A stretch of DNA of 64,000 nt from Phytoseiulus persimilis (taxonomy: Eukaryota > Arthropoda > Arachnida > Mesostigmata > Phytoseiidae): contig CM075102.1 in NCBI GenBank assembly GCA_037576195.1, positions 35,894,745 to 35,958,744 on the forward strand, written 5' to 3'. The position numbers were made by a program, and so were the translations under genes. Within the stretch, counting starts at the first letter, position 1, and the number at the start of each line of letters is the position of its first letter. The notes under the pieces are model-generated. The model was not told the DNA's origin, made no database searches, and worked only from the letters and a program-made list of their open reading frames with translations. Shown piece after piece: positions 6,889-46,200 of the stretch.

Positions 6889-9800
6889 ACTCAACAATGT
6901 ACAGAATTTGCTCTCCGATATCGAATTTCTTTTTGCCATCAGTGATCTCGATGTTTCCCTTCTCAGCATTGACTTCAATGGTGGCGCTCTCGGCAATCAG
7001 CGCCTTGCCGTCGAGGACTTTTCCCAACATGGGGATTTTCCGGGGTCCCAGCAGCGGATCTTCGTAGCGATACAATTTTATCTGAAAGATGTCCCGATCA
7101 CATTTAGACTCGAGCACTTCCTGAAACTTATTCCATTCAGGTACTGAAACCGAGGCTTTTACCTTATGACTCTCCTTGATTTGGCGACTTGTCTTCCGAA
7201 GCTTGTTTGAAAGGTTCGCCACAGTGTCGCCGATAACCACAGGTACCGCTACTTCGAAAACCCCGCTGTGCGCTTGGGGGTTAACGCATTTCAACATCAC
7301 GAAGCTGGACTGCTGAAACACTATGTGGGGAGAACCAGGACAGCATTCTTCTTTGATTTTCTCGTCGGCCCCGTCGTTGAACAAGATCTTCAAACTCACA
7401 ACGTCGAGAGTGCTTGACAAGTATGCTGAGTTTTCGGTCAATATGTCGAACTCGTTGAAATCGACTGTTTGCTTCAATGCTCTGGGGCCAACCTTCTCAA
7501 CTTTCTCCCGCATCATCTGAGCGAAAGGCATGACCTTCTTCATATACTTCTTCAATTCGGTCTTGTCTTTGAGTTTTTCCGAGATGACCTTGTTCGGAGG
7601 TAAGCCTTGATGCTCCTTGTGGAGTTCCGACATCGTGGTCAGAATCAAACTTTGCCACTGAGGGTAAGTTTTTGCGATGTAAACTGTGGCTTCCAGAACT
7701 TTCGGCAACGCAGGGGAGCTCGCGGGTGGCTGTTGGTTTCCCTTTTTGCCAGTTTTGGATAAACCAGCAATGTAGGCTTTGAGCCTAACTCGGAACTCAT
7801 GGCAGGTGTCACGAAGATACTCGGATGACTTCAGAAGGGTCTCATCGACCTTTTCGGTCGTCGGCCAGCCAGCTCTTAGGATACTCTCCTTTTTGCCGAG
7901 GAGCATCATCCACACGTAATCTGCCACGTGTGGACATATGGGGGAGAGAATGAGCAATTGAGTTTCGATGAACTTCATCACGAGATCGCGGTGCATGCCG
8001 TTCAACAGGCACAGTTCGCGATAATCATCCCGTGCTGCCTGGAACTCGAAGAACCCGGTTTTCAGAGCTTCTTTGAAGAGGAATGTTTCGTAGCTCTTCG
8101 CGGTTTCCCCTACGAGGGCGTTCATCTGATTGTCGAACGCTTTGTCAGCGAATGTGCTCCGGGGACCCGTTCTCAGTTCACTCTTTGACTTCAGCATTTC
8201 TTTGACCCATTCGACGAAGGCGAACAGCCGAAGAATCGCCGCGTCCGCTGTGCTTTCAACAAAATTAGCGTCTTCAATGCTGTCGCCGGCGTCTGCGAGT
8301 GCAAATCGCGTCCCGTCCGCACTGAACTTCTCGATGGACTCTATGAGTGTCATGAAGTTGCCAGTGGACTTCGACATTTTCTCGCTATTGAGCAGTAGGA
8401 GCCCGTTCGCCCGGATGCCACGTATCCACCTCTCCGGCTCCTTGTCCCACATTGCCGTATGGTTGAACATGGCATAAGTCAAATGGTTGGGCACGAGATC
8501 TTTTCCAGACACGCGGACGTCGAGAGGGTACCAGTATTCGAACTCTTGCTTGAGTTTATCCAAGGAGCTCTTCGGAATCTTGGTCGATTTCGGGAAGGGA
8601 GCACTCTTGAAGAAAATGTAATCCCAGACTTCCAGAGTCATGTCGCTGGCCTTGATGCCTGAAGTTCGGAAACGATGTCCGGCTAAAACTTTGTGTCGGT
8701 CGTCCGGCTTTTATTCTGTTCGAGATTGATATTCAAACCGATAAACGATGTCGAAACTGCGCTCACCCAAAGGACTCTTTTCCTGACGACCAGTCATGTC
8801 ACCGCCTTGCAGGAGGTGGCACACAGTATAGTAAGCCATGTAGATGGTGGAATCAGACAGAGATTCGATGAGCCAGCTCTCGTCCCATGGGAGTTTCGTT
8901 CCCAAACCATACGTTCTCGAACAGGCATGCTCCTGCAGCCAATCGAATGAAGCTTCGAAGTTCTTGCGAACCTCATCCGAGAAACATTCCGCCATCGCGA
9001 GGTTCTTCTTCGCCAACTCCTTCCAAGACTTGTCACCTGCGATGAGATATCCTCAGACATTTTCTATTCGTGTGCAAACTGCAAGAGAGTGTTTTGCCAG
9101 GCCACACCGATCGAACCGGGCAGAGATGTGAATACGTCGCAGCGTCGGAATTGAGTGGAGAAAGCATCGACTCACCATAGTCCAGATACCACTGATCACA
9201 GAGAGCTACGACACATTCCTCGCCCGATCGCGCAATGACTTTCTTCTCAGGTTCCTTGTAGTTCACCGCTTGTTTGCTGTCGACAAGGTGGGTTTGGATA
9301 TCCTTCTTGACGTCTTGAATCTTTTTGCCCTTGTGATCTCCGACTTGGAGAACGCCGTCGTAGAATCCCTTCAGATATACCTGACAGGACAGCAATTTAC
9401 TCAATGCAGTTACCCAGTGAGAATATTCAGTTCAGTCTAGAATGAAGTTACGGAGCTGCCTCAGAGACGAGCTGCTCACCATCGCCTTAGCTTCCTCGAG
9501 TTTCTCTCGGTCGTTCTGACTCTGAATTTTCAAGTCCTCGCAGACTTTTACAGCTGAAAGATTCCCGAATCCTGGCACTTCAATTATTGGAACTGGGTCA
9601 AATGGAATAACCATCTCATCCTTGATTCCATATTTCTCCCGGAGAGGCGCTTTGTTTTTCAAATCCCTCAGAGCGGCGAAATCGTCTGGAGAATCGCTGG
9701 GGACACTGGTGACGACGCCGGTTCCTTTATCGTCTTTGATAGTGAGCATGGGCAAGGTGTAGATTGTTTTGTAGGAGGTGAGAGGAGCACTCAAGGCAAC

Positions 9801-12128: not shown

Positions 12129-15100
12129 ATGTCAGACGGAGGACACTGTGCTCATCAGCATCACGATCACGGAGGTGACGATGCTCACGTCGGCCCGGAG
12201 CTTGGAGTTCAGTATACTCTGTATACGAAAATCGATATCGACAACGTACAGTGCCTGAACGAAGCCACCGAAGGCAGCGGCAAAACAGTGTTCAAGCCCT
12301 GGGATGAGAGACTCGATTCCAGCAGAGTAAGTTGTGACAGTGGCAGGAATGGCTCGAATGAAACGAAGTTGATAGTCCTGAGTGTTGGCTGCTAATCGCG
12401 AATGCCGATGCGTCTCTTTGTTGAGCGGATCCTCATAAGTGTTTGAAACTCCTGAGCAACCTTTTCGTCACCCCATTCCGGAACGAGGAAATGGTCCTGT
12501 TCGATCCATGAACAGAGTCTTCATTTGTTGTTGGCGTCTTGATTGTTTCGGGATGGAATCGCTCGAGAATGCGTCCATTCTTGTTGTGCGGTGTGCTCGA
12601 ACGCGAGCTGTCGGAGTTTTGATGCTCCGAAACTCCAATGATTCTCCAAATCTAGAACCTGCATCGCAAACTCGCCTCTCATGATCCGCGTACCTGGATC
12701 CTCGGATACTCTGATCGAACAGATTCTACGAAGTATCGGTTGCGTCAACAGAAATGTTGAAGAGGCTCATCAGCTGTCCTCGCGAACCCTTGTGGCTCGC
12801 GCGAACTCTGCACGGCCGTGCCGCGGTTTGGAAGTCCAAGCTCACTGATGATGTGAAACGCGATGTCGAAGCTTTCTGGAGAGACAAAGTGCATGATTTT
12901 TCGAATCCGAAGGGTGCCAAAAGCTACGTGTTGGCCATGTTTCCCTATCCGTCAGGGAACCTACACTTAGGTCACATACGGGTGTACGCGATCGGTGACG
13001 TCGTGGCGAGGTATCATGGCATGTGTGGGAAAAATGTCATTTTTCCAATCGGATGGGACAGCTTCGGTCTTCCAGCGGAGAACGCTGCCCTGGAAAGGGG
13101 GGAGGATCCCCGAGCGTGGACAGAGAAGAATATCGTGAGCATGAAGAAACAGCTCCAAGACTTCAACTTCTGCTTCAACTGGGAACGCGAGATCTCCACT
13201 TGTGAACCGTCTTACTACAAATGGACGCAGTACTTGTTTGTCAAGCTATTCGAACGAGGTCTCCTGTACCGGAAGGAAGCGGTGGTGAATTGGGATCCTG
13301 TGGACAAAACAACCGTCGCCGACGAACAAGTAGACGCTGAAGGCAGAAGTTGGCGCTCCGGCGCAATGGTGGAAAAGAAACTTCTCAGTCAGTGGTTCAT
13401 TAAAGCCACCGAATATAGCGATGAGTTGTATAAAGGTCTCGATGATCTCGAGGGCTGGGAGGACATAGTCGGCAGACAAAAAGGCTGGATCGGTGAAGTG
13501 GATGAAGGCGTGATCTTCAAATTCAAACTGAGTCCTTCAGCTCCCTTGAACGAAATTGAGGTCTGGACAGAGAGGCCGGAGTTGCTCGTTGGGGCTGCTT
13601 TCATCGCGGTAACAGAAGACCATATTCTCTCTGACAGTCTCAAAACTCGGAAAATTGAAGCCATCAATCCACTGAACGGCCGACGCCTGCCGATTTTCAC
13701 AAACCAGGACGAGTTTTCTGTTCCGAAATCTACACAGAGCTTCTTGGGTATCCCATGCGACTCTGACACAGAGTCCGAGTTCGCCAAGGAACATGGCTTA
13801 GACTTCATACCCGTTCTAAAAGATGGCGTTGTTGTTAATTCCGGCGAGTTCAACGGGTCTCGAGAGCAAGCGCGAGAGAAGATACTGACGTACGCTCAGA
13901 CTCAAGGCTTTGGGGGTTACAAGTCGAGCAAAGTGCTCCGTGATTGGTTGATATCACGCCAGAGGTACTGGGGAACCCCGATCCCGATCATCCACTGCGA
14001 TACCTGTGGTCCAGTTGCTGTTCCTGAGAAAGATCTCCCAGTCGAGCTGCCGGCGCTCTCAAAAGGTCAAAAACTTTCCGAAGCTGCGAAATGGCTCGGC
14101 ACAAATTGCCCCAAGTGTGGTTCTGAGGCCAAGAGGGATGCGGATACAATGGATACATTCGTTGACAGTTCATGGTACTATATGCGATACCTCGATCCGA
14201 CGAATGGCGAGGGAATCGCGGACGCTTCTATCGTCGAAAAGATGATGCCAGTGGACTACTACATCGGAGGGGCAGAACATGCCATCATGCACTTGTACTA
14301 CGCGCGTTTCATGGCCTACTTCATGCACAAGGAACTCGGGCTCGGGAACAAGGACTTCGTAGAACCTTTCAGGAAGATGATTGTGCAGGGAATGGTCTTG
14401 AATGAGACTTTCAGAGTAAAATCCACTGGAAAGTATCTCCCGAAGCATCATGTCGACCTCAGTGATCCAAAACGCCCGACGGAGCTGGCGACTGGAGATA
14501 AAGTTCTGGTGAAATGGGATAAGATGTCCAAATCGAAGCACAACGGCATCGCTCCGCAAGATCTGACTGCCAGGTATGGAATCGACACAACACGCTTATT
14601 CATCCTCGGGGGCTTCGGACCAACAGCTCCGTACAAGTGGCCGAGCCCCATGTTCGACGGTATCCTGGCTTGGCAAGCTAAGCTGTGGAACACCGTTGAC
14701 ATTTTCCGGGAATCGCGGGATTCCTGTCCAGATAATGTCAATGAGGAGCATGAACAGATGATTCGGGATGCTCGGAATGATTACGTCATCAAAGTGAACT
14801 ATTTCATGAACCACGACCATCAATATCACTTGGTGCTCAGGAAGATGCAAATTTTGACAAAGGCCCTTCGACACGGTGTGAAGGGACCGAGCTCTTACTT
14901 CGGACCTCAGTATGAGCGGGCGTTGGGCGATCTACTCATCACCCTTGCTCCTTTCTGTCCCCACTTCGCGTCCGAACTGTGGGAAGCGTTCGTAGACAAA
15001 GTGAAATACGGTGGATTCGAGCTTGAAGGAGTTTTCAAACAGAAATGGCCAATGCTCGACAAGGATTTCGGGCTATTCCTCTCAGTCAAACTAGGGGAAG

Positions 15101-16208
15101 AGCTCATCGTGCGCACACGAGTCCCGCGGGAATCCTTCGACGATCTCACGGCGGAGGATGCCTTGAATATGGTTCGAGATCAAATACCGGATTCTTTGAG
15201 GGAGACGACGCCGAGTTTCATCAAGTTGCCCGCCTTCAATGCGGTTCTCACCTATAAAGCTCCGAAGATTGCGACGGCAAAAAGGAAAAAAACAAGAAAG
15301 TAGCCGCTGCCGCTCCATGACTGAGTGCCTGACGGTCAGTCTTCGACGCTCACAGCTAACTGATGATATTGAGATCCCAATAAAGAATGCAACGAGTCTG
15401 TGTTCATGAATGGTTTCGGTTCTATTTGAACATACTTCACGTTGCAAATCAACTCAGTGCTTGACAACACTATTCACAGGTGGTCGAGTCGGATTGTGAT
15501 GAGGAGTTGCTGTTCTCCATTCCTTTCACTGGAAACGTCAAGCTAAAAGGAATAATCATTGTTGGAGGTGAAGGAGACACCCATCCAGCCTCGCTGAGAA
15601 TGTACAAAAACCGACCAACAATGTCGTTCGACGATGTTTCTCTGGAGCCAGACCAGGAGTTCGAATTGAACAAGGACTCGGATGGAACCTTGGAATACCC
15701 CACCAGGTGTGACATTAGATGAGAGTCAGAGGGACACATTTATTCACAGACTCGACAATCTGACAGCTTCGTGATGATCGATTCTGCTTCTCGTCTAAGC
15801 TTGAATTGTTCTTTCCAGAGTAGTGAAGTTCGCTAGCATTCATCATTTGACATTACATTTCCCCAAGAGCTTCGGAGCTGACAGAACGAAAGTTGTATAC
15901 ATCGGACTGAAAGGGGAATTCACAGAGGCACGTCCACGCAAGGAGTGCTCCTCCTTCCACCATCGTTATTATTATATTGATCCGTCCAGTTATCATTTGA
16001 ATCGGAGCGCCATCTCAAAATGTGATTTCAGCGACCTATAGGGATGCGAATAATCTCAAATACATTGCACACCTTACAGGCGCATCGACAGGAAATCGCA
16101 ATATGCAATTACGAGCTAGCTCCGAACCCGGCAGACCACAAGATCGATCAACAATGCTCAACGAGAAACTATGAGAGTCTCCACAATAATAACAATCTCG
16201 GTTTCTGA
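12129..16208 (+). CDS. PITHD1: PITH domain-containing protein 1
   Basis: Homologue of human PITHD1, a small protein built almost entirely of the PITH (proteasome-interacting thioredoxin C-terminal) domain, linked in the literature to the proteasome and RUNX1 control. Four exons: 12129-12326, 15480-15706, 15819-15927, 16080-16208, giving 220 aa (human 211). The His-rich N terminus (HCAHQHHDHGG) is followed by the PITH fold from about residue 28, with landmark stretches GSGKTVFKPWDER, ELLFSIPFTGNVKLKG, NFGAD-like SFGADRTKV, YIGLKGEFTE and ICNYE. Intron 1 (12327-15479, about 3.15 kb) contains the whole LARS2 gene on the same strand. The last intron needs a GC donor: GAG followed by GCACGT at 15928, acceptor ending at 16079; this gives an ungapped match to the human protein across the junction. 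Confidence 0.93.
12754..15303 (+). CDS. LARS2: Leucyl-tRNA synthetase, mitochondrial (intronless, nested in PITHD1 intron 1)
   Basis: Bacterial-type leucyl-tRNA synthetase that charges mitochondrial tRNA-Leu. A single open frame of 849 aa with no intron (human protein 903 aa). The N terminus (MLKRLISCPREPLWLARTLH) is rich in Arg and Leu with no acidic residue, as in a matrix-targeting presequence. HIGH appears as HLGH at residues 71-74, the ATP-site stretch IGWDSFGLPAENAA follows, two CxxC pairs (CDTC, CPKC) lie in the zinc-binding insert, and KMSKSKHNG is at 590-598. In the CP1 editing domain the usual TTRPDT is TERPEL (272-277) and the GHDQRD loop is replaced by CDSDTE, so editing is probably lost, as known for the human mitochondrial enzyme. 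The gene lies on the same strand as its host intron, with 427 bases upstream for a promoter and its own AATAAA downstream. Confidence 0.97.
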   Translation: MLKRLISCPREPLWLARTLHGRAAVWKSKLTDDVKRDVEAFWRDKVHDFSNPKGAKSYVLAMFPYPSGNLHLGHIRVYAIGDVVARYHGMCGKNVIFPIGWDSFGLPAENAALERGEDPRAWTEKNIVSMKKQLQDFNFCFNWEREISTCEPSYYKWTQYLFVKLFERGLLYRKEAVVNWDPVDKTTVADEQVDAEGRSWRSGAMVEKKLLSQWFIKATEYSDELYKGLDDLEGWEDIVGRQKGWIGEVDEGVIFKFKLSPSAPLNEIEVWTERPELLVGAAFIAVTEDHILSDSLKTRKIEAINPLNGRRLPIFTNQDEFSVPKSTQSFLGIPCDSDTESEFAKEHGLDFIPVLKDGVVVNSGEFNGSREQAREKILTYAQTQGFGGYKSSKVLRDWLISRQRYWGTPIPIIHCDTCGPVAVPEKDLPVELPALSKGQKLSEAAKWLGTNCPKCGSEAKRDADTMDTFVDSSWYYMRYLDPTNGEGIADASIVEKMMPVDYYIGGAEHAIMHLYYARFMAYFMHKELGLGNKDFVEPFRKMIVQGMVLNETFRVKSTGKYLPKHHVDLSDPKRPTELATGDKVLVKWDKMSKSKHNGIAPQDLTARYGIDTTRLFILGGFGPTAPYKWPSPMFDGILAWQAKLWNTVDIFRESRDSCPDNVNEEHEQMIRDARNDYVIKVNYFMNHDHQYHLVLRKMQILTKALRHGVKGPSSYFGPQYERALGDLLITLAPFCPHFASELWEAFVDKVKYGGFELEGVFKQKWPMLDKDFGLFLSVKLGEELIVRTRVPRESFDDLTAEDALNMVRDQIPDSLRETTPSFIKLPAFNAVLTYKAPKIATAKRKKTRK
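15379..15384 (+). terminator. LARS2 polyadenylation signal inside the host intron
   Basis: AATAAA lies 76 bases after the LARS2 stop codon and about 95 bases before the PITHD1 exon 2 acceptor. It supports LARS2 being an independent transcription unit within PITHD1 intron 1; use of it must be avoided or tolerated when PITHD1 is transcribed through. Confidence 0.6.
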
Positions 16209-19593: not shown

Positions 19594-22500
19594 TCAAATA
19601 GCAGCATCTTGTGTGCTTTGCAGAACCTTCCGGACGTGATCTCTCGTCACCAAGGGGTACATGGGGATCATCTGGAATATTTGTCAACTATCCGTGGGAA
19701 CTTCTCATTGGAAAAAAATTCATAATTATCTGAGGTCTGTCGGAGGAAGTTCTTTCAACGATTAGAATCGAGGCATACTCACTGCGAAAACAACAACAAG
19801 AAAAACCACCAAGCTGGCGCACCGGTACCCGACAATGTCGAAGAGTACACCCCCGAGAATCGGGCCCATGAAAGCTCCAAAGAAAAAACCGGTCGAGAAC
19901 AAGCAAGCTACCACTGCGTACGTCGATGGTCCAGGGGCAAAGTTCATCCGAGTTCTGAGGGATAAAATCATCCATCTGTCGATACTTCCAGTGTTGAATC
20001 GTTACGTAACATGGTTATGTCCCTCACCGAGTGAACGCATCAATGCGGTACATTATTTCACGAAATTGGTACTTGCATTACGTATTTCAAAGAGTGGACG
20101 TAGCTCAGATTGTATATTGCGCCATTCCCGATTCCCATCAGAACTTGGCCCAAAATAATCAGCCAAGGCGACCTGAGAAGTTCGAAATAGAAAGATCAAT
20201 GCGGAAAATAATCAAGAAATAGAGTTTGGAATGTAATGGAGTGCGATTCCTTGCCAACGCTCCGTTTCTGATCGAGCACGAATATTGCGCGAGACTCACG
20301 GTTCAATGGGGACAAACGGCAAGGGACCCAGGAGAGAAATCCCAGTACAAAAGATAACACCACCGATCAGCACCAGGATTCGGCAATCCTCCTGAAATCG
20401 AACAGTTGTTTTTCAGCACGGAGTTCTGTATGGACTTTCCCAGTGCATCCAGCGGAGCTCGTCCTCGGGATACTTGCCACTCTGTTCGATATGAGTCCAT
20501 TGATGAAACTTGAAGTGCCGTAGACGATACCGTAAGTGAGAAAAATTAACGAGCTCATTGACATTGACGGATTGAACTGCTCGATCCACAATGCCAGTGT
20601 AGAAGTGTTGAACCCTATTATGAGACAGCACACTATCACAGCGATAAGGTCGAATACGACACGATGGTCCTTCAAGAGATCAGTCATCCTCAGTTTGGGC
20701 AGTTTCTTCTCTTCGAGAGCATCGTCGAAAGAATGTATCGAGTCCGGTTCGTCTGGCAACAGAACGAAAGTCAACGATGCGAAGACTAGACTGCAAGTCC
20801 CGAACACTAAGAAAGGGAGACGATAGCCTCCAATCTGAAACAACAATAACTAGGTCAATGCTCGCCTTGTGTTTTCTTTCGCTTCTCTATATTCGGTGAG
20901 CTTAACCTGACGAATCTAATATGCGTTAAGGAAGCTCTTAGCCGAGATGGCCGATTGCTTGGCGGTGAGTGGAATGAAACTAGCCACCAAACGATGTAAC
21001 CGACGATTTGTCCATGACATCGTTTGTGGCTCTAGTGCCGCGATAAACCCTTTCGCCAATACATCAACGACGCCAACAACAACACAAACAAAAGCAAAAC
21101 GCGGATTTCAATCTCAACTGGGAATGAATCTTTTCGTTCCAACTCACGCCATATAGAAGACCTCCCGCAGCCGGCCCGATCATGATTCCGAATCCGAAAA
21201 CTGTCTCTATGAGCGGCTGAAAAGGTGCGAACAGTGTGTCACGGCGATTCTCACTTTTTGGGACCCTGCAGCCTCTCATCGGTTGCATGAGGACACTTAC
21301 CACCATGATTTGCAGCTTATCGGGAAACTGCGCGGAAACGAGTGTATAGTAGCTCGTGAGGCACATTGAGAATCCGATGGCTTCCACGAAGCGGACGCAG
21401 AGAGCGGCAATGAAGAACCCCATCGAAGATTCAATCATTGTGAGAAACGCCATTAGCGTCAAGAACAGGCCGTCGATGGCCAGGCCAAGCAACATGGCTG
21501 TCTTGGGGGTGATCCCGGACGAGAGCTGCGGAATGACCCCGCCGTTAGAATGACGTAGGACTCGGGTCAACGGATTCTCCCACGGCTTGCAGGAAAGTAT
21601 AAATTATTCACCGGGGAGCATTCTTTGATGCAAAATTGCTCCGCGATAGCTCGGTTGATTATCGCATTCGGAATTATTTTCTCATTGACCGGATTCCTGA
21701 AAACCTTAGAGGAATTCTTCTGCCGGTATCTGGGTGATAATGCTTCAGGGGTGGGAACCTCTCGTTACCCAGTTACAGATCTACCTGTTCGTGCGTGATT
21801 TCGCAATCGCGTCCGAATTGATTGCTGCTATAAGAGTGATAAAACTTGCACGAATGCAACGCTGCGAGGTACCTCAAGACTCATGACATACTGTTAAAAC
21901 CTGTAATGCTTTTTTCTGCGTTCCTGGGCGAAATAGCCTCCATTAGAGAATGAGAATTACTGTAGATGAGGCTTGTTCGCGAGCAGGCGGCCGTACAGAT
22001 ATTTCCTATCCAGTACCCTCGAGGATGGAACCACTTCCGATATGGTTTAGAAAGCATCAGATAACGCTCAGAAACCGCAATCAATCCTCTCTGGGAACCA
22101 TGGTCTCCGAAGGCCAATTCTTGTCACGATCGCGAACGAAAAACCGTTGGATCCCCTTGGGAATAAATGATATTCCTCGTTCATGGCTCCGCATAAATCC
22201 GATAGTTTTAATATATCTCTTCGCAGACTGTCAATTTCTGCAACGAGAGTATCGCTGACTTTGCTCAACGCGGAGGCCGCTCCTTCATGTTCGCTGTCCT
22301 CCTCAATGTTTGGCCTTTGGAGTTCAAGGACAGTCCACACCTAAGATGCCACTCTTTCGAGATGCTCAATCTTTCGGTGTGGGACCCTTTCGAATGAGAC
22401 CGGAGCCGGCTGGAGCAAGGCATACCGCTGCTGACTGGAGGACGACGAGGCCTCCGGACTTTTCAAGAGTTTGAGTGTTTCCATCTTCGGAGTGGCGTGA

Positions 22501-22782
22501 TGGCAGCGAAGGCCAAACCGGAGTTGGTAAGAGCGAACTCACCATTTTCCCGATGAATGGACTGCTGACGAATCCCACGAACGCGTACACAGAAAACACG
22601 ATTCCGATCTGAGTGGCATCGTTGCCTTTACTCCTGGCGATGCTGGGGTAGAACGGTGCTAACACTGAATAAGACGCTGTTTGCACCATGCATCCAAGGA
22701 CTGTCAATACAACCGTGCTGATTCGCATGCGGTTCCAGTACGCTTTGCTCTTCTTCTGGAAAGGCTCCGGCAGGACCGACAT
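19594..22782 (-). CDS. SLC18B1: SLC18B1-like major facilitator superfamily transporter
   Basis: Integral membrane transporter of the vesicular amine transporter-related SLC18B1 group; the human protein has been reported as a vesicular polyamine exporter. Eight exons: 22782-22543, 21525-21301, 21216-21148, 20834-20481, 20391-20300, 20172-20077, 19954-19783, 19671-19594, giving 441 aa (human 456). Hallmarks: ASYSVLAPFYP in the first helix, SVYAFVGFVSSPFIGKM after helix 2, FGFGIMIGPAAGGLLYG, and GAFMGPILGGVLFD, the paired G-P-GG repeats of the two six-helix halves. The start is the first ATG of exon 1. Two junctions are less sure: the exon 4 donor (GTGGCA chosen for phase) and the exon 6 donor, where only a GC donor (GCAAGT at 20076) restores phase. 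The exact substrate cannot be told from sequence. Confidence 0.85.
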
Positions 22783-25700
22783 CGCTGTTGTTACCGGTAC
22801 CTTGGTTGGCTCTCTTCGCTTGCAAATCGAAGAGGCGAGGTAACGCTCCTGATGTTTTCAAAGAAGAGAAGAAGGTCCGGTTCGAGCTGGGGAACCAATT
22901 GTAAGAACAGGCTGGCGTCGCTCCTGGGGCCTCAACTCGAAGATCTGACCAACGAGTTCACGGGCAGCCAGGCGAGTTGGTGGACCTGGAGACACTTCAA
23001 ACAAGAGCTGCCGAGGGCCTGCAATCCCATGTCGAACGCTACAGTATTTAACGCATACTCCACACGGAAAAGGGAGAGCGCATCGTCGGGCGGCAAAGTG
23101 GAGAGGCATTGCCAGGGAAGTCAGGGGCTGGAAGATTGCCCTGGACGTCGCCTCAACGGTAACTAACAACAAGCTGCCATCGCGTACTTCGAGGAAGCGA
23201 AGATTTTCGAGCATGAGTTACCGAGTAAGACCGAGTTTTCAAGTTTTCCTAGCACCGATGCATCTTCCAATCGTCGAGCATAGACACCGCCATTCTTTGA
23301 TTAATTCTGCTAGATACTCCCGCCTCGAGACAACCCCTTGAGCAGCTCCTCCCGTTTCCAGTATAGGCTCGAGTGAGCTTCCCTTGGTCCTATCCTGTTC
23401 TTGGGGTGAACAATCCAGTGCCGCGTTCCGGGACCACACTTCCGTTGCAGCTCGCGACGACGAAACAGATCCTGTGGGGCAAAACCAATGGGAGAGGTGT
23501 TTGAGGGTCAAGGACCGGATCGTGGGCAGTGTACCAGTGGATCTCACAGGGAACCGCGACGTTCAGTGAAGAAAAAGGAAGGCACTCCTCCGGTGGAGTA
23601 TTCTCTCTAACTTATCATCATCCGGGTATCACACAACACTCAACTGCATCATACAGGGAGGGCGTGATATGAATTCGATCTCTGAACCGAGGAGGGGGCT
23701 GCATGCCATCATTGGGTGCGTACCCCGCTGATCAGAGTTTTGAATTTTGAGGCAACTCAACTGCCTCCTGACCATAAATGATTGGTCTACAGCTCTCAAC
23801 GCTTGCAATGAGAGTTCAGGCACCGGAGTCCTTGGATGTGAGCTCTGACCAGTGGCGGCTCCAGCCATTTTCTTCCCGAGGCTGAACGTCGTTCTTAATG
23901 TCCTTGTCACCGCCGCGATTTTGGACGCTCTGTCATTGCCTGTTCCGCAGAATTCAGCAGTCCCTAGCTGGGCCTTAGCTGCATCTATTAAGAGCATGAG
24001 AACTTCAAACTCGTAAAACCGTTGACCGCATTTCGGATGAGAGTTAGAGAGCCCGAATAAGGCAATTGAGGGATTGGAAGCAACTACTGAGAACTTCTGA
24101 ACCTTTCGGGAAAGATTCATGGATACATTCCATGAGGCCAGGCTCATAGATCCTGAAAAGTAGGAGGCTTCAGCCGCCGTAGTCTCATGCTAGCGCCAGC
24201 ACTGGTTGTGACATTCGTCTCTTTCTCGTCGGATTCGGGGACAGCAGCTCCTCCATAGAAAGAACCTCATGAAGACCAGCAAGACCGATTTCGGGAGTTC
24301 TACTGAGTCCCTGATGAGTCGGAGACCAAATATTTCCATCGAATCTCGCGGTTGAGGCTGTGAACCTGTTCCGAGATTAGCGGCAGCGACGTTATAATTG
24401 AGCTTCGCACTTCCGAACTGAGTAGCTTCGATTCCGGTGCGTCTCGCCGATCATTCGCATTCGAAATTGAGTCCTTCCTACTTCGACAATCGAATCGGGG
24501 TTGCGGTCATGTTATGGTGAAATCGAAATTCTATCTGTCAGTGTAGATTCCGCCCCCTCGACCGGGTGCTTCTTGAAGTAGAGTCTCCTAACGGTTTCCA
24601 GAGGTTGCGAAGATCGCGCTCATTTGTTCGACGGTATCACCGCATAGCGTCAGCCCAGAGCGCTCGTTTGGACATCACACTGCGTTTCGAACAAGTGATG
24701 ATCATACGCGAGGGTTCGTCGCTAGAATATGATGGAGAGTTCTCGTCCAGCTGTGATGACAAGTTTCCCGATCGGTCCTAGCGGTTATCTTCGCTTCCCG
24801 CTCGTCAGCGACCGTCTGGAAAATGTCATAAAATTTTAAGAGAATTCTGACAAGATTTGAAGGAACCGAGGGATAAAGTTTTAAGAGATAATTGCACAGG
24901 ATACTCTGTATCATGCAGCTCAACCGGACTCGCGGACCGAGCGCCTGGGCACAGCCGGCTTTGTCGATCTCGATCGAGCCTTGCAACTTCGGCGGACGCT
25001 GCCTGACTGTGAGGGAGCCGGTAACGTCACGCGAACTGTGGCGAGAGATAACGCGGCGACCGATCCTTTTCGGTTCCCACGGCTCTCGCGGGTGAGAGCG
25101 TTTACCATGTGGCTGGTTTGCCCCCACGACCGGAGCATTCTGTCGGATTACCGTGTTTCGAATACACAGTGCCATACTGGAACGTGTTTCTAAGAGTTTT
25201 CCTCAAAAAAGTCGCGTGGTGATGCGACGGAAGAGCGTTCATCTCGAGAGTGGCTCACTCTGTCTGCTATTCCCTCAACCATCGATAGAACCGCCTATCC
25301 ATCTCAGATCCAAGGCGCATCCGGAGAAAAAAAACTTGAATTATCCGTGTCCGAGTCAACAGGAAACTTGACAGGTTCTCTTTCGACGTTTTCAACTCCT
25401 CATTTCCTGCGCTCCGATCCGCGGCTCCCTCATTCTTCGCAGAGTACCCGCCTAGAAACCTCGGACGATCCAAAGAACGCAGAACTTTATGCAGGCCCCT
25501 TAAAGCGACCCCTTGAATCCGATACCCCTCGCGATATTTACCGAGGAATACAAGATTCCCTCCGCTGAAGCGAGCGGCAAAATCTGAATCCCCAGTCGAA
25601 TCAAACCTCAGGGAATTCCTCCCAGATTCAGATGGGGAGGATCCTCGGTTTTTGACGTAGATTTCCTGAAGAGAGGGTCTGCCAACGAATGCCTCGCGGA

Positions 25701-29880: not shown

Positions 29881-31760
29881 GTTCAGGTAGAGAAAGAGGA
29901 GGACCGAACGTTGCCCCTCCGCCGCTGCGGCAGCCAACCGCTGACTGTGCGTGTTGTGCTGCCAGAGAGTGGTTCTCGATGAGCCTAGTGCTGGTTGCTT
30001 CGTAAGAGGAAAGCCCCAGCTTTGTCGGAGAATTCATTCTACGGTGAGTCGGTCGGGGAGAATTCTCGTAAAGCTTTGCATTATCGGTCCCATCACGATA
30101 AAGAGGATTCTAGTCCGGTTCGAAACTCCCGCGCCGGGAGTTCCCGTGAGAAAAAAAAATTCGAACCTATGCTGTCAAATCTATTGACCACTTTCTCGCG
30201 CCTCTCTCGGTTCTGCTATCAACTCGAGGCGGAGTACAGGTGGGTCCGACTCAGGCGAGAATTCCGATGAGCACTCGCAAATGAAGCGGAGAGAACCGTG
30301 CTCGGAATAAATTCAAGAATTCGTACATCATTGGTTTTGAATACTGTGGTTCCCTCATCCGTTCCGCTATGAGCTCAATTCGCGAATCGTTAATTGCTTG
30401 AAGAGCTTCGATGAATCCGAGTCGTGCGCAGCTATGATTGTCTAGCGCGGAGAGCTGACTCAACTTTCAAGGAACAAATACGACGACCAGCTGAACAACC
30501 CGTGCGACGAAAACAGAGACACCGCAGTGATGACCATTGTGTTTCGAGGCCCGCGACCGCTTCGAAGAGCTCTGACCTCAGAATTCGGAGTAAACACGGC
30601 CCATGTTGCCCATGATGCGCTAATTCCATCGTTTGCTGAACTTTTTGTGGCTCTGCATTCTGTAGTTTCTGGCGTTCTCCAATCGCAAGTTGCAACCATT
30701 CACGGAATAGATCTCATCTGAGTTTGTGAGTGTCCCGAATCCGTAACGGCGACGACTCCGGATTCGCACACGCGATCATGAAGAATGCTATTTCGCCTGA
30801 CCAAATGGGCATCCGAACAACCCGAGGGAACGTCTCCAGGAGAGAATGCTTAGCTTCTCCAAAAATCGCAGCACGATCCTGAGTTTCCATGTAGCCTCAG
30901 TAATAAGTGAAAATCTATGAAATTGCGGTGTAAGTTTGCTGTTTTCGATGTAAAGGTGGACGGGACTTGAATGTGCTGAGAATTTCCGTGACAGCGTCGT
31001 TGATCGGATCCCGTTTGTTACGTTGTGGGCACCATAGACGCTGGTTTCATCGTTTCTTTTCAGCCCTCCGTTGCTATGGAAGCGCTGGAGGTAAACGCTG
31101 CCAGCTAGCCATGCAGCTCTCTGAAGCACCGGCGCGAGCCATGCTACCACGAGCTGCACCGAAGAAGAACGTCTCATTTGTCACCGCTTCTTATTCAAGT
31201 CTCAAACAATTGAGCGCCGTTCTCTCTGTTTCTGTCCATCGCGTCCGATTCCGTCGGGCTGTGGGCAAGGGTACGACAGAAAAAGCATATTGGACGAATG
31301 GCTGGAGTCCGACGGCTTCAACTTCTGCTGTTGCATGCTCCCAAGAGCCGTTGGACCACATCCCTGGAAGTCCCAATGAAAGCGCTGCTAGCGAACAGTC
31401 TAGCTGGGCTAATATAGGATTTAGAAAAGCAGCGCGATCTTGCTTTACGAGGAGAACTCAACTAAGGAGACGTTTGATCCAGTCTCACGAAAGACGAAAC
31501 GACCATATTCGTTCGTTCGCGTAAGGGAGCGCTGCTTTCATGAGACAGCGTATGCGGTCAGAACCGATGTCAGAGTTTGCGGCGAGTTCCATCGGATTCA
31601 TGGGAATTTTTCATGGTTGCGTGGTGGGACACGCCACAGAGTTATGGTCGAAGCCAAGCAGTCGGAAGAGGTTAATATAATCACGTGGCGAGCCCAGCAT
31701 TCACTAAGGCGTGTGTTGATCCGCTGTTTCAGGTAGCCGAGCCCAAGGTCATACCCCAGC

Positions 31761-34700
31761 ATGGGGTGGAGCAGCAACCAGCAGCTCATCGTGGCCTACC
31801 TTGCCACTGCCCTGGCTCTGACTCAAGGTAAACCGTTGCTCCTGGTGCCGATGATGACAACAGCGCCGTGTAACCTAGTCACAATAAGTGAATTCGGTCA
31901 CGCCGACCTCGGCGCGGCCAGCTCGCTTTTTTGTCCCGAGCCAGTAGCAGTACTTTCGTGAGGAAGCGTCCCACTGGGAGCTCGTGTTGAGCACTACCAA
32001 CGCGCTGCTGAGCGTGATTCGAAGCTCATGTCGAATCCCTGAACTTCGCCAATGATGATTCAACGAAATGGCTGCATATCGGAACATGGCTTTCCCGAAC
32101 GCTGACTGGAGTCAGGCTGACCACTCAGCAATCGGGTGACTGTCAACAACAAGAACGGGGTCGCTGTCACCACACCCAACGATCGGAGACGTCCTGTCAT
32201 CTGGCGGCTCGTGACAGGCTGTAGTGAGGTAGCGAGAACCTCTGGGCCTGTGATCCTCAACCTTCCTGGGCCTGTGGCCCCCGACGCTAGTGAGAGGAAG
32301 TCGTGGCTTCCGGAGTCCCGTCACGATTTTCGAGTGAGGAGACGAACAAGTCCGGCTCACAATACAATGCTGGAGTTCATTGGGACTTTGGGAGTATCAT
32401 CAAGTTCCGTGATTGTTCCACGCTGACTCTCATGAGCGGATCTCGAACGACTTCAGTTTCTTATGGCAGTGGATCGTAGCGACATCCGACGTTCATTCAC
32501 TAGTCCATTGACTTGTTCCATCTCGACGAAAAACTCTCATTCAGTCCAAGATCCGAAGTTTGGGAACTCAAGTTAGCGCCGGATTCAGGAACGGTTCGTG
32601 GAGGGCCGTCGAGAATTCGTTTGTTACAGATATAAACTCATGTGACTTGGAAGAGGATCATGATTCCCGCGGCTCCGTCGTCGTTAACGAACAATTTCAC
32701 AAGCTAGTCTCGATTCCAGGCATTGCGGGCCCACGTAACGTGCAGGTCGTGAACGCTACGAGCAACTCCGTGACGATCTCCTGGACGAGCCCGCCAACTC
32801 CCCCGGGCTTCGTGTTGGATTCATACCAAGTGATGGCGAACCCGATCTTCTCCTACTCTGTCAGTAGTGAGCCGTTCAAAGGCACCGCGAGCGTCCAGAA
32901 GAATTCTTTCATGTTTTTCGGGCTCGCCGCAGCCACCCGATATAACATTTCGATATGGGGAGAAACTGCTGATAAAAATGTCACGGACAAGAGCTTCGTC
33001 GAGGCCTGGACTCTTATCGGAGGTCAGAAACCATTGAATTTCAACTCGATTTATCGCTTCGGATGTCCACTGTTCGAGGGTCCACTGTTGCTGCTCACAG
33101 CATGAGATTCCTGCCAAATGCGTCACGCTCAACAGCCTCATCTATTTCAGACTTGAGAGCGCCTCCTCGGCCGGACGTGAAAGAGCTAGAGGAAAATGGA
33201 AAACACATAATCAAAGTGAAGATCAATCCTCCTGAAAACTTCCAGGGACCAATCTCGTGAGAATCTCTCACTCCGACTTCATGATGGCAATGTTCATGGG
33301 TCAAGGTCTCTCAAGGCACAGTTTCTTCATGTTTTCTCTCTGATTCCAGGAGATACCAAATAGTCGTACTCGAAAGCGATTCTGTCATGGCTTTCGATCC
33401 GTCCAAATTATCAGATTACAACAAAGCCAACGAAGAGGGCACGACATATTACATTGCTGGCGAGCGAGCTCCCAACGATATCGAAACGCATTTTGTGGTC
33501 GGAGATGGTCTGTCGAATCCCGTGCTGCCAAAGGATCAGAAATTCGACATCCTGACAGGAGTGATAAGCACTTTGAACGGGGTAACTATCGCGTTGTTTA
33601 TCTTCACCCGCTCTCGATTCGAGTGATTCTCGTCCGCTCCTCGAGCCATCAGCCGAGAGGCGTTCCTGAAGCTGTGCTTCGTTTTCGCAGGAAACCAAAT
33701 CTGTTTACTCCGCTCCGTTGTTTGCTCGCGTCGTGCACGGGAACGTTGTAGACATAGAAGAGCCTATGGCACAGTCGATGCGGCGCCGAGATGCGGTCCT
33801 GGTTTTCATGCTGTCGGTGGCCATTGGAATCCTAGGGTTTCTCCTGGTCGCCTCATTCATACTTTACATCATTCTACGTAGACAGTATAGTCAGAAAAGA
33901 CGTTCCGATGAGCTCATCCTCAAGATTCACGACCACGACAACGTAAGTGCTCGGACAGCTGACGCCCACGTCGTTCCGCAACAAGTTCAACACGATTGAC
34001 GTGATCGAGTTGCTCAATCCCCGCAGGAGAACACTTATTTCGGGAATGGTCACTTGCATCTTGAGGAGGGAGCTGATCTCAATGGCTTTTACAACAAGTT
34101 GTGCGACCTGTACTGGCAGATACCGAGACCCCAGCTCCATATCTCTGAAACGATGTTGGGCCAGGGTACTTACGGGCCTGTGAGAGTTGGTAAAGTGTTG
34201 AGGAACGGCCAGGAAATCGCAGCTCAGATTCAGAGGTGCGGCATAGTAACCTGTTTCATATTCTCTGCTGTCTTTTTGTCTGATGAATCGCTTGATCGAG
34301 AGTGTTATCTCATTGTGTCATCCAACTCTGCGATTCTAAGGTCCTCTAGCGTTTCTCATAGATGCGGCGCCCATTTCGCGCTTTCGGATCGAGATCGACG
34401 CGTATTGCTCTCAGATCTGGAAGCCATGGTGAGGATTGGGGCACACCAGAACATCGTGGAATTCATTGGAGGTTGCGAGGAAGGAGATGCGCTGTGGATG
34501 GCCACCGAACACCCAAACAACCCACTCAGAGGAATCCTGCTCTCAAGTCGGTTCGTATCCAGATATTCTTCGATTCGCTAGTCTTTCGGAACAGCGGTGA
34601 CGCTGAGGTTTCATAGCCATGGGGATCGGCAACGTCGGGGCTTCACTTCACGCACATCTAACGCGTTGGACGGGAGAAGGTTGCCCACCACTGCATTAAG

Positions 34701-35442
34701 AGGAGAAATCTACTTTCCGCAGTCAGACCCAGGAAGACAATCGAGTCTGCTCGATACCGGAATACCGACTGATGGAAATGGCCATTTCGTTGGCCGACGG
34801 CTTGAAACATCTGGAGCATCGAGGTGTGACACACGGCCATCTCTCCACGAGGAGCATTATGGTGGTGCTACCTGACATGGTTCCTAAGATTTCGAACTTC
34901 TGCATTGCCAAGTGAGTTCCCCGACGCCACTCTCGCGTTGGAACACCTGAAGGAGTAAACTCGAGTTTCGTTCATATCGGCCCATACTGACAACATTAAT
35001 CGATAACTTCCCCTATGTATCGCCTACGAGGTTCTCTCTCCTCCGTTGCAGATATACTCCGTTGGGCAAGAGGCTTGATTACACGCGTTGGACAGCGCCG
35101 GAAGCCATGCGGAGGCGCGTGACTCACAAAGGAGACGTCTGGTCTTTCGGAGTTCTCCTTTGGGAAATATTCACTTTGGGGGGCACCCCATATGTTGACG
35201 TCAAACTGAACGAAGTGCAAACGAAGCTGTCGCGCGGCCATCGACTCAGTCAGCCGCGGGGAGTCGATACGACGCTCTTCCAATTGATGCTCCACTGCTG
35301 GGAAATGGATCCAGACGAACGACCGACATTCGAGGAACTCGCCAGAGATCTCCGGAACGTTGCCTCCGAAGATCCTCTGAGGTTGCCCAAGCAGACCAAA
35401 TACATCTACGACAAATTCGATCCGCTCGCCGACGAGTTGTAG
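31761..35442 (+). CDS. Receptor tyrosine kinase-like protein with an inactive kinase domain
   Basis: Single-pass membrane receptor of 645 aa in nine exons: 31761-31827, 32720-33022, 33151-33256, 33350-33581, 33691-33942, 34027-34235, 34362-34550, 34723-34911, 35052-35442, all in phase. Order: signal peptide (1-22), fibronectin III domain (about 24-122), a second FnIII-like domain (about 124-245), transmembrane helix 271-298 followed by RRQYSQKRR, then a kinase-like domain from 355. The glycine loop is LGQGTYGPV (364-372), and the C lobe has TAPEA, DVWSFGVLLWEI and a conserved ending typical of receptor tyrosine kinases. However, the ATP-site Lys is Gln (387), the helix-C Glu is Asp (408), the HRD motif is HGH (490-492), and DFG is NFC (511-513), with a shortened activation loop. 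It should not phosphorylate substrates; a scaffold or ligand-binding role is inferred. The C lobe and helix-C region resemble FGFR/Cad96Ca-type kinases; the ligand is unknown. Confidence 0.88.
32366..32413 (+). repeat. Short dispersed repeat, copy 2
   Basis: Diverged copy of the repeat at 29199-29246, here inside the first intron (31828-32719) of the receptor pseudokinase gene. Confidence 0.4.
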
Positions 35443-40200: not shown

Positions 40201-43200
40201 TTGGCTCTTGTTGATGGGATTGTCGGATCGGCCGGTTTGCACGAGGAGTTTGTAGGCGAGGATTGCGTCCGTCGTCGCGTTCGCCGTCCAGCTCTCTGTG
40301 TTAACAAATCCTTGTCTGAGTTCATCGTCGAACGTTCTTTGGAGCCCTGAAGAGAAAGAGGGAAAAACTTCAGAGCCTGTCGAAGTTCTCTCAACGAGCG
40401 TCTCCCCGCGAATTTCGGCTGGATCCGAGATTTAAAGGTACCAGTGCATTGTTGTTCGTCTCACAGGTTCCGAATTCTGTTCTGAGCTGATTGAAGTGGG
40501 TTTGCTTCAGTCATGCAGAGAAAGTACTTCGTTTGGTGTGGTCGCGCATAAAAAAAAAAACTAAAAGAGCGCCACAAGAGAATAAAGGGGCTCTCTCGCA
40601 GCGGATCGCTCTTGTATGTGCTCCTAACGAAGTATTGTCTATCAGAAGCGGTGAGTTATCTGCATTCGTATCCTTTCTGGGTTCATCTGTTTGAGAAGCG
40701 TCTTTCTGTCGGCTATGTGTGCGCCTCTCTTCCCGCTCTTCTCTTGCATTCCGTTCCGATCAAAGTTTCGACTAACAAATTAGTTGTCATTCGATGTCGC
40801 CAGCCTTACGCCGGCTCGCCCGCTAGCTGCCAACCGGAGTCAACAACAACAACAGCGACTGCAACGAGCGGCGGAGCGACACAGCGAGCAAACGAGCGAC
40901 CGCTAAACAAGCGATCGAGAAAGCGGCCCAGGTTGTCTCGCTCTGATGAATGGGGCGCCTTTTCGGTGAGTTTTCGTTCGTTCCGACTCGCTGTGGGAAT
41001 GACATTCTTATCGCAGACGACGGATTCCTGCTCCTTCTCCGGATAAAGTATCGACGTAGAGTTCGAGAACGGTTCCGCCCTGCCTGCCCTACCCATCCGG
41101 CGGAGCGTCTTGACACGAGTTGGGGTACCGCAATAACGTTACCGAGCTGCTGTACCGATGAATATTTTTCAAGATGAGCTCGCGTTCTCCCACATCTGAA
41201 TGCGGCTGTCAGAAACGAAGTAACGGGAGCGCAACTCGTTCGTTTCCTGACGCGCTCGAGCGGGGGTGCGTTCAAAAGGCGCACCACAGCATTCGGCGAC
41301 GACGCCGCCGGCTCGGAGTTTACACAGAAGCCTCTTTGTGTGGCCTCGTCTTCATCAGGTGCTCAAACAGCCTTCATTGACTTCAATGGAAACGCGGAGG
41401 TTCCGAAACGAGGGAAATTCCGAAAAATTCGCGGTAAGTCATCGAGAAGTTTGCAACCAACCGACCCACGAGCCAAGGCGACTGACGAGCTTGGGTGGCT
41501 GACAGAGACGAGCTGCCGATTGCGAACAACTGACTCGAAGAAAAAGGAATTCAGCGAAACTAATCCAATCGCTTCCGAACGCAACACAACGTTGGGATCG
41601 CGCCTGCCAGTGTTTGAAGCGACCCCCGAGCGAGGGGCGGGGGGGGGGGAGGATTACCTAAAGCCCGGTGATGAGGTGGCAACTCGCCTAAATCGCCGCC
41701 CAATCCTTCTTCGAAGACGCCGCGCCGTTCGAGCGATTCCCGGACCAGGCGGAACGGAACCGGACTGAAGCTTCTTCTCTCGAGAGTGACTTCTTCATTT
41801 GGCCAGAGCAGCATCCGAAAATTCGCTAGCTCCGTCTTCTCAGTGGCCAGAAGTCAGTCGACTTACATCCCGTCGTAAATCTGTCACATGTCCTTCCTAA
41901 GACACGGAGCAAGAACGGAACTTATCTCTTATCGCTTACAAATTGCCGTTTTATCTCAAACTAACTCAAGAAGCTCCGGCGTGTCTTTTGTTTTATGATC
42001 GATCTCTCAATTTCCCTCCCCGCGGTGGACGGATCCGGATGTTCCGTGCGAGTCCACGCCGATGATCTCTGTCTCGAGAGGGAAAGGAATCCGAACCGAC
42101 TGAAACCGATGGACCGGACTTGAAAGTTGCTCGCACCGGGTTCGACGGCCACGCGGAGTTTGACGGCGCCGCTTGCATCTGTCTGGCCGACTGGGCGATA
42201 AGGGCGTCTTCACGGGTTTTGTTTATGAACAATCGGAGGCACGCACGATAGCATGCGCACTCCGCATCCCGGGCACAGTACAACAAGTCGGCTCGAGTTA
42301 TTTTTTCTAGTTCATCATCGAGATGGGGTCGACCGCACTACTAGGACGGTCAGGATCGATGGACGGAGGGACAGGTAAATGAATAGGTCAGACTGGCGAA
42401 GAACTCCAATCTGATCGTATGGTAGTGTTCTCTCTGTGGGAACAGTTTTCACTCCGTCGTGATTGCACTGAGCCAGAACTCAGAGCCAGAACAAAACAGG
42501 GACTCACCTAACAACCAGTCCCGGAACAGCGACAGCCAAAAGTCAGGTAGTCCGCCGTCATCGTTCTTCACGATGTTCCCAACTCGAGCGAACGCCGCGT
42601 GGTACTCGTGCAGCAAGCGCTGATTGGCTGGATATTCGAAGTTGGCCTGAGTGACCCCGAAAATACTGTAGAACCTGAAGTACTTCTCCTGCTTGATCAG
42701 GTATTCGAACTCGTGGCTCTGTCTGGGGATGAGATCGCTGAGTTGCATTCCGTCCTCGAGATGCGTGACACCCCACATGCCGAACACGGACAGCCCGACG
42801 AACGAGAACACCGCGAGGGTGCGCACCGCGGGATGATGGACGAACGGCGCGTAAACGTCCGCGGCGAAGCTGCTGAGCGAGAAGCCGAAGCATCCGTCGT
42901 CGATACCTCGCTGCCGTCGAAGACGAAGCTCGTTTTCGTCGTTTTCTTCGATCGAGATCACTGACACTGTTGGTTTAACGAAAGCTTCGTCCCTGACTCG
43001 CACCGGCTGACCTGTCACCAATTCGGTGGCGGAGTCGCTCCTTCTGTTACGCGTCTCATCGGCTGGCTCGGAGGCTTTGAGGCAGCACAGAAGGTCCAGG
43101 CGGTGTGAGGCTCTCCGCTGAAGGTCCAAACTGAACACGGCCGGGAAAAGGAAGAGAACGGTGGCCGACGAGAATGTGAGAAGTATTGCCGCCTGCAGCG

Positions 43201-46200
43201 AGAATATCCTCAGAGCGGGGATCGGGATCAGCGACGCAGCGAATAAAGCCAGAATCAATGATGAGTTCGAAACAACAATGTTCACTCCTGTGCGCTTCAG
43301 ACATTCGCCAGTTTGTTCCTGGAATGAAAAAACTAACTCAGCTCGGATTCCCGAGAACCAAAAGAGAGTAATCGCCCGTCGAGCCCCGAAGCCGAGCCGA
43401 GGCTCGATGAGCGCAAGCTTAGCAAGTTCCTCATCATGCAGGAACTCGATGCATGATGAACAACGCTGTCGTTCAGCAGGCGATCAGGAAAATGACACTA
43501 CTCCGAGGAGGATGAGTGATACTCGCGGATCGGTTGCAGCGACCGTTTTCTTCCGTCCTAATTTTATGTCATCAAGGAGCGTTCGCTGGTTGCGCGAGCT
43601 TTCGCGTCTAAATGAGACGGATCGGCTCTAGCTCAGAGCACATGAATACCAGGAACGAAGTCTAAACGTGGCCATTATCTACGGAATTCAGAACTCCCGT
43701 ATAGAATTGGATGGTCTGTACGTGAGTCGCCCAGTCGCGCCAACCGGAGAGCGTGTCTCCTGCAGCCGACCCGGGGAGGAGCCGGAACTTCTCCGCGACT
43801 GGGCCTGGACTGAGCTGGAAACTCGTCTTCCCACTCCATGCAGACAACGACAGCAGAGAGAAAACGGTCGAGGGAGTTTTGTTCGGAGTTCTAAAAATGG
43901 AAGTAATTTCGAGACCAATGATTCAGGGATCGTTTATCAAGCTGTCGCCATCTCGAAGGTGTCACCCAATGCGGGCTGGCCATGCGTCGCCAACAGCGAG
44001 ATATCGCTCACTCGCCGCTCACAGGGAAGTCAAGTCGAGTCGGGTCGAGACACAAGAAGGGACCGCTCTCAAGACTTGGCGGAAAGCTAGATACAGTTGT
44101 TCGCAAGAGGCCTCGGAAGAAAGCCGTTTGAGCTTTCATCGGCTGAGAGCGTTCTGTTGATTTTCCGCTAGCCCATCCGCCGCCGGTCCGCCGAGCACGA
44201 GCCACGCACAGAACCCACCCGGAGCTTTCATCGTCGTCCCCATCCAGTCTTCCGAGCAGCGAGCCGGCGACGTATGGCAATCACATGCTGACAGAGCAGA
44301 TCGATTTGGGTTCGGCCAAAAACACGCATGCATGCAGTCTTCCACTCGCTCGCTCGTCCACTCACCTCTAGAGGAACGCTTCCACTGGATACTATCTTGT
44401 TGAGCGTGTGTGTCAGCAGGAAGACGCCGTTGATTCCGAGGCCCAGAGCCAGGAATGGCAGGACCTGGGTGGAAGTGACGTTGAACGTCAGTCCGATGAG
44501 TGCGCACAATCCGAATCCCGACGTTAGGCTGAGCGCGACCAGGACGACGCCGATAAAGCCAACGAACGCCTGAGATAACTCGGGCTTTTGGACGTTCACC
44601 AGAACTGAGCATACGTATACGACAATGATGGCGGCCCCGATAACCAGTCGGGTTGTACTGGGTCGACTGAACGAGCTGACGATATCTTTCAAGGCACTGA
44701 AGGTGAAAACATTGAACTGCTGCTTCTTCTCTTCTTCATGCGCTTTCTTCGTGAGCTGCTCGGTGAATTTCTTCTGCCAAGCGTTTATGACCTCGCGAGC
44801 TCGTTCCACAGTCCAGTCGGAGTTCACTTGGCTGTGGCTGTCCGCGTGGTGCGCGTACACCTCCTTGTCTTCCATGATGCGCACGATGCTCCGGAGCGCC
44901 TCGGCTTTGACGATCACTCCTGAGCGGTTCTTCTGGATTCCGCCCATTATGAGATCCTCATGCCAATGCATGAAGTTGGATGCGATGCCATAGCAGCCCC
45001 CTGTCAGCGCGGCTCCGATTTGGGAGGGCGACGGCGGGGCTTTCGACTTGGCGTTCGGCGCGCTCTTGGGGCAGCCGGAATCGTTTGGATTGAGGCACGG
45101 CCGCTCCATGTAACCCGTGCCCATGCCGGCGCGCGAGACATACTTCTGCATGAGATCAAACGAGAATTCGGTGTCGTTGAATTGGCTCTGCGCATCGATC
45201 AGCTGCTGGACAGGGTTCAGGTACGACCAGCGGAGGTACTGGGTGTCGTTGCCCACGACGACGTACGGTACGTTTCTCCGATTCAGGAGCTTCGACCCCT
45301 CCCAGAAGCAGTCGAGAGGCGTCATGATTATGCAGGGCATCAACTTCTCGAGTATATCGTCGACGTAGTACAGCCCCGTCGGAGGTACGCTGGGCTTCAC
45401 GCAGATGTCCTCTAGGCTCCACGCGCTGCAAAAGGAGCAAAAACACGATTTATGAATTTGAGCTTCCGGCCTGAGCAGCCAGTCCTCGATAGGTCCGCGG
45501 TATACTCACTAATCATAGAGCTCGACCTCGGTCTGCAAGGCGAGTTCGAGCATACGAGCGTGAGACAACAGGTTCTCCGCTCTCAGAATGTTCTGGCTCG
45601 TCCCCGAAACCGGCGTGTGGATGACGATTTGATCCGAGAACGTGGCCGGCGACGCGTCGAGCTTGGCTCGGATATATTCCAGTTCTCTCGTGACGCGGCC
45701 CCCCTCTGAAACAGGAAGGAAAAATATAAATAAACGGACATTCGGCCTCGTTTCAAACATAATGAAGCCGCCACCGATCGAAATCAGCGGGCTGGACTCT
45801 CTGTTTTACTAATCTGCTGTCGGCGCTTGCTTGTTGCTATTAGCGCATACATCTCAATAGATGCAGTCTGTAGTTCAGACAGGCGTGGTGCCTCCGTAAT
45901 CTCGGAGCCCCCGAAGTAGAGCTGCCCCCGCCCCAGAAGACGAGAAAAACTTTACCGGGACCACCGGCAAAGTTGTCGTCCGCAGAGATTATTCAGTCCA
46001 GCGACCGTCGAACCTCCCGTACGTGATCTACTTCCCGACCACGGAATCGCGGCTCTAGCCATCGAAAAAACAGAACGAGGAGACGAGCGGGAGAACTACC
46101 AGCGGGACATCGACAATTAATAAGCCGCCACATTATGTTCGACGTTACAACGACAGCGGAATATTCCGTTCTACACAGATCCGCAAGCTCCCTCCCGGAC

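Follow-up and report, generated by a model that had tools for sequence, protein, structure and literature searches.

The window analyzed here, a 64,000-nucleotide stretch of Phytoseiulus persimilis DNA on contig C2 (CM075102.1), carries the gene for what is, with a probability of roughly 0.8, a receptor tyrosine pseudokinase, single-copy within our search, that likely serves as an inactive co-receptor or scaffold and resembles Wsck without its WSC domain. The frame encoding signal peptide, FnIII region, transmembrane (TM) helix and kinase fold is intact and the C-lobe is kept, but residues for handling ATP and Mg and for catalysis are replaced. As predicted from the sequence, the protein has an extracellular part, a single TM helix and a tyrosine-kinase fold in which essential catalytic residues are substituted. 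The genome comprises 181 Mb in 127 contigs, four of them large (54.7, 52.0, 38.9 and 28.1 Mb).

The gene occupies positions 31761–35442 of the window on the plus strand, and its nine exons, once joined, form one unbroken frame of 645 amino acids. All introns are GT-AG and every junction is in frame, bearing out the claim of the first-pass annotation that the nine exons splice cleanly; the span given there (34027–35442) consists of real receptor exons and corresponds to exons 6–9 only. Exon 1 (31761–31827) carries the start codon and the hydrophobic signal peptide (MGWSSNQQLIVAYLATALALTQ), with an in-frame stop codon closely upstream at 31734–31736, so that the stop-to-stop frame starts at 31737. 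Exon 2 (32720–33022) encodes the first FnIII domain, exons 3 (33151–33256) and 4 (33350–33581) a second, FnIII-like domain of the receptor-phosphatase membrane-proximal type, and exon 5 (33691–33942) the end of the ectodomain, the TM helix and a stop-transfer sequence. The juxtamembrane segment, the Gly-rich loop and the beta-3 position fall in exon 6 (34027–34235), helix C and the strands after it in exon 7 (34362–34550), and the catalytic loop, reading HGHLSTRS in place of HRD....N, together with NFC in place of DFG, in exon 8 (34723–34911). Exon 9 (35052–35442) supplies the activation segment, the APE motif, the conserved C-lobe and a tail with KYIYDKF before the stop codon. Judged by eye, the weakest donors are those of exons 6 (gtgcgg) and 7 (gttcgt). 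Exon 9 could also begin at a second in-frame acceptor, 35031, which was chosen by the splice-aware aligner, whereas the pyrimidine tract, again by eye, is better at 35052.

Pfam and hydropathy analyses predict a single-pass receptor. The first FnIII domain is clear (fn3, 42.9 bits, amino acids 27–105). The second matches Fn3_PTPRU at 16.7 bits (amino acids 140–239), and since this falls under the cut-off of 24.7 bits we regard it as weakly supported; thus, of two FnIII-like domains proposed initially, one stands firmly and the other is sub-threshold. A search with the ectodomain alone gave weak matches to fibronectin and, spanning both domains, to receptor phosphatase mu (E about 1e-4 to 6e-4), while NCBIfam gave no match within amino acids 1–320. 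Fn3_PTPRU searched against the genome yielded two sub-threshold matches, none at the receptor locus, which we attribute to the division of the domain between exons. Hydropathy shows a hydrophobic N-terminus and one TM segment at about amino acids 269–301, in agreement with the signal peptide and TM helix first described as intact, and three N-glycosylation motifs all lie in the ectodomain. The kinase fold (PK_Tyr_Ser-Thr, amino acids 362–616) scores 164.8 bits despite seven replaced catalytic residues. Pfam detected no Ig, cadherin, WSC, ephrin-binding or SAM domain in the protein.

In order to assess the catalytic residues, the kinase domain was aligned with 28 of the genome's tyrosine kinases, a set of our own picking (eight single-exon models and 20 built by the splice-aware aligner, L039 being partial), in which 50 columns are near-invariant (at least 85% uniform). 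The receptor departs in 17 of the 50 columns, compared with 0–5 in 26 of the 28 kinases and 13 and 14 in two RYK-like genes (L045 and L046); for L036 and L039, 47 and 35 columns were scored instead of 50. Replaced are the beta-3 Lys (K387Q; K in 27/27 kinases having a letter there), the helix-C Glu (E408D; E in 27/27), the Arg and Asp of HRD (R491G and D492H; conserved in 26/28 and 28/28), the catalytic Asn (N497S; N in 28/28), and the Asp and Gly of DFG (D511N and G513C; 28/28 and 26/28). The changes to Gln, Asp, HGH and NFC reported in the first-pass annotation are therefore confirmed. Its wording that every catalytic motif is lost is slightly too strong, because the Gly-rich loop (GQGTYG), the His of HRD and the Phe of DFG remain; APE, the helix-F sequence DVWSFG and the CW....RP region are likewise retained. 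The retained His and Phe belong to the regulatory spine.

The activation segment is indeed short, at 17 amino acids versus 21–30 in all 28 kinases, although use of the 35031 acceptor would give 24, the commonest length in that set; neither acceptor restores catalytic residues. Conservation of the C-lobe holds as well: amino acids 528–616 are identical to the FGFR-like kinase L029 at 41 of 89 positions, and the N-lobe (362–435) at 20 of 69. Up to amino acid 513, 13 of 30 near-invariant columns are changed, versus 4 of 20 from amino acid 526 on, a difference that is merely suggestive because Fisher's test gives p = 0.13.

By domain architecture, the nearest described counterpart appears to be Drosophila Wsck (P83097), minus its WSC domain. 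In the portion of the fly description available to us (PMC2754085), the 809-residue protein has WSC at 42–115, fn3 at 129–233, TM at 422–444 and a kinase-like domain at 511–768 with the motifs HRQ, VFG and APE. The two proteins thus have in common an FnIII ectodomain, one TM helix ahead of the kinase, a dead catalytic loop and DFG, and a retained APE. With WSC removed, the domain order of Wsck is that of the mite receptor and the spacing roughly so, by printed coordinates and motifs rather than by sequence: from fn3 start to TM, TM to kinase and kinase to end, the distances are about 242, 61 and 29 amino acids in the receptor and 293, 67 and 41 in Wsck. They differ in that Wsck has the N-terminal WSC domain and HRQ/VFG, while in the receptor no WSC was found and the motifs are HGH/NFC.

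Could the gene be a true Wsck ortholog from a lineage that has shed the WSC domain? We consider the chances even. The same succession of FnIII, TM and unsplit dead kinase with similar spacings argues for it, as does the apparent lack of a WSC-encoding portion: a stop codon precedes the ATG in frame, none of ten ORFs in the neighborhood of exon 1 and intron 1 matched Pfam, and a genome-wide WSC search gave nothing over the cut-off and two weak matches elsewhere, although either search could miss a WSC domain divided among exons. Against orthology, the defining domain is absent, the likeness is one of description and printed coordinates, and the published classification, as far as the accessible text goes, groups the Wsck kinase with Eph (PMC2754085), whereas the receptor's nearest kinase by search is FGFR. 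Since the name-giving WSC domain is missing, we call the gene Wsck-like in architecture rather than a Wsck. In the literature that we searched, Wsck seems to have received little attention. In the parts of a moth study available to us, Wsck knock-down weakened some juvenile-hormone responses (Kr-h1 and Vg induction, the calcium rise and the pupation delay) and left MET1 and TAI phosphorylation unaffected (PMC11908783). A Wsck receptor therefore has a function, the catalytic state of the moth protein not being stated in those parts.

The kinship of the kinase domain points elsewhere, if indistinctly. FGFRs make up nearly all of the best 60 matches listed in a solved-structure search (best 152 bits), the top row being a two-kinase EGFR chain. 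Two FGFR-like kinases of this genome show the highest of the 28 identities (34.6% and 34.1%); the third FGFR-like kinase (32.5%) comes after a partial model (33.6%), a Cad96Ca-like kinase (33.3%) and a Src-like one (33.1%). These three FGFR-like genes (L029, L030 and L031) lie in tandem at C1:39.51–39.54 Mb with intact catalytic motifs. Family names of our kinase loci (L001–L048) are putative and follow the look of their sequences; L047 has a weak cadherin match besides (23.3 bits, under the cut-off). In a tree with the 28 kinases, the receptor sits on a very long branch (about 2.4 changes per site) beside a group of FGFR-like, Cad96Ca-like and Ret-like kinases.

These matches, identities and tree position would fit a degenerate receptor of the FGFR/Cad96Ca/Ret group that lost catalysis independently. 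We nevertheless consider this origin unlikely. Support for the tree position is merely 55/41, and forcing the receptor together with Src-type kinases gave a tree 1.70 log units better than the free one. None of seven placements was rejected by clade tests (p-AU 0.143–0.637, with 0.144 for placement with the FGFR-like trio alone); the seven include no placement with EGFR, Eph, FAK, Fer or L006/L008. Of the receptor's three kinase-domain introns, none is at a position shared with models of FGFR-like, Cad96Ca-like or Ret-like kinases, and one coincides with an intron of L044. FGFRs are defined by an Ig-domain ectodomain, and the receptor has neither Ig nor cadherin domains; the FGFR-like kinases of this genome keep the catalytic residues that the receptor has lost.

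The first-pass annotation had suggested looking for an active paralogue that shares the ectodomain, and none turned up in what was searched. At E <= 0.01, a whole-genome protein search, in which 68 of the 78 initial candidates were scored and 61 matches obtained, revealed no second copy and no ectodomain match elsewhere. We also screened for proximity of fn3 and kinase matches, covering 100 of 151 fn3 and 122 of 158 kinase matches (the remainder being taken for duplicates within those clusters, downstream exons or small contigs, or lying beyond the rows listed), and found no active receptor with this ectodomain among them. Pairs within 15 kb were a long fn3 cluster with a kinase, which we take to be titin/twitchin-like, the Eph-like L032, the Sev/Ros-like L033, a kinase at C1:23734675 and the receptor gene itself.

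A functional receptor pseudokinase remains the best reading, and it is partly supported: the open frame, the conserved C-lobe and a simulation of neutral decay speak only indirectly for the selection that the first-pass annotation had proposed. In the simulation, random uniform substitutions without indels were applied to the present coding sequence until 34% of residues were replaced; in none of 2000 runs did the whole ORF escape stop codons, while the kinase part did so in 17 of 2000, which suggests, as far as the model goes, that the gene is under constraint. The long branch, the longest in the tree, and the 17 changed columns would also suit a pseudogene or dying gene that is open by chance, but 645 codons without stop or frameshift, GT-AG ends throughout, the conserved C-lobe and the simulated runs make this very improbable. 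Still less credible is an active kinase restored by alternative splicing, for which the 35031 acceptor and its 24-residue activation segment might be cited: introns 5–8 encode no HRD, HKD, HCD, DFG, DWG, DLG, VAVK or VAIK in any plus-strand frame, hence no exon that would restore the catalytic motifs, and the isolated triplets seen in intron 1 (DFG and DLG) and downstream of the gene as far as 36700 (HRD) would be out of place.

Comparison with known receptor pseudokinases shifts the nearest parallels. ErbB3, Ror and Ryk, the comparators first suggested, retain more motifs than the mite receptor does in the part of Table 2 available to us (PMC13259870); EphB6 and fly Wsck are closer. Human EphB6 (VAIQ, helix-C R, HRS....S and RLG in the same table) resembles the receptor in keeping the Gly-rich loop, in Lys to Gln and Asn to Ser changes, and in loss of the helix-C Glu, the HRD Asp and DFG. 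The table gives EphB6 an accessible ATP site even though its losses are equally broad, so the receptor may still bind ATP. The absence of ephrin-binding and SAM domains sets the receptor apart from EphB6 and other Ephs. The RYK-like genes of this genome approach it in the number of changed columns (13 and 14 against 17) and differ in keeping the Lys, the HKD Asp and the catalytic Asn, with DNA in place of DFG. RYK carries a WIF domain, and alignment and Pfam found neither this domain nor the HKD and DNA motifs in the receptor. The two RYK-like pseudokinase genes themselves are separated by about 40 kb and oppositely oriented (C2:45.93 and 45.97 Mb). Our literature searches aimed at receptor pseudokinases of mites, chelicerates or arthropods turned up, at the level of titles and abstract openings, no paper on such a receptor.

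By analogy with known receptor pseudokinases, as described in the available part of that paper (PMC13259870), the role of the protein is likely non-catalytic. The FnIII ectodomain would bind a ligand or a neighboring cell-surface protein, and the inert kinase fold may dock on a catalytically active receptor kinase present in that cell, allosterically activating or braking it. The active partner could then phosphorylate tyrosines of the juxtamembrane segment and tail, e.g. Y324 and Y633/Y635, and these, lying outside the active site, might recruit adaptors. A stricter version, in which a Wsck-type receptor stripped of both enzyme activity and WSC is a minimal FnIII-TM-pseudokinase adapter working solely by docking to another receptor, we put forward tentatively, as somewhat short of an even bet. 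If confirmed, the gene would represent an arthropod receptor pseudokinase whose catalytic residues are lost unusually completely, and it would reveal what a Wsck-like receptor retains after catalysis and WSC have gone, namely the FnIII ectodomain and the pseudokinase fold.

Elsewhere in the window, pieces of a Major-facilitator transporter lie upstream of the receptor (20370–22857, minus strand), and Sterol-sensing/Patched-type matches lie downstream on the other strand (42452–45505, minus), where ORFs indicate that the gene may reach about 37238. Two leucyl-tRNA synthetase genes adjoin each other. The one at 6890–8710 (minus strand) has RagD-binding and ubiquitin-like domains, as in the cytosolic type, and by its ORFs seems to extend to about 11507; the other, at 12715–15300 (plus strand), has a leucyl editing domain and is taken as the mitochondrial type.
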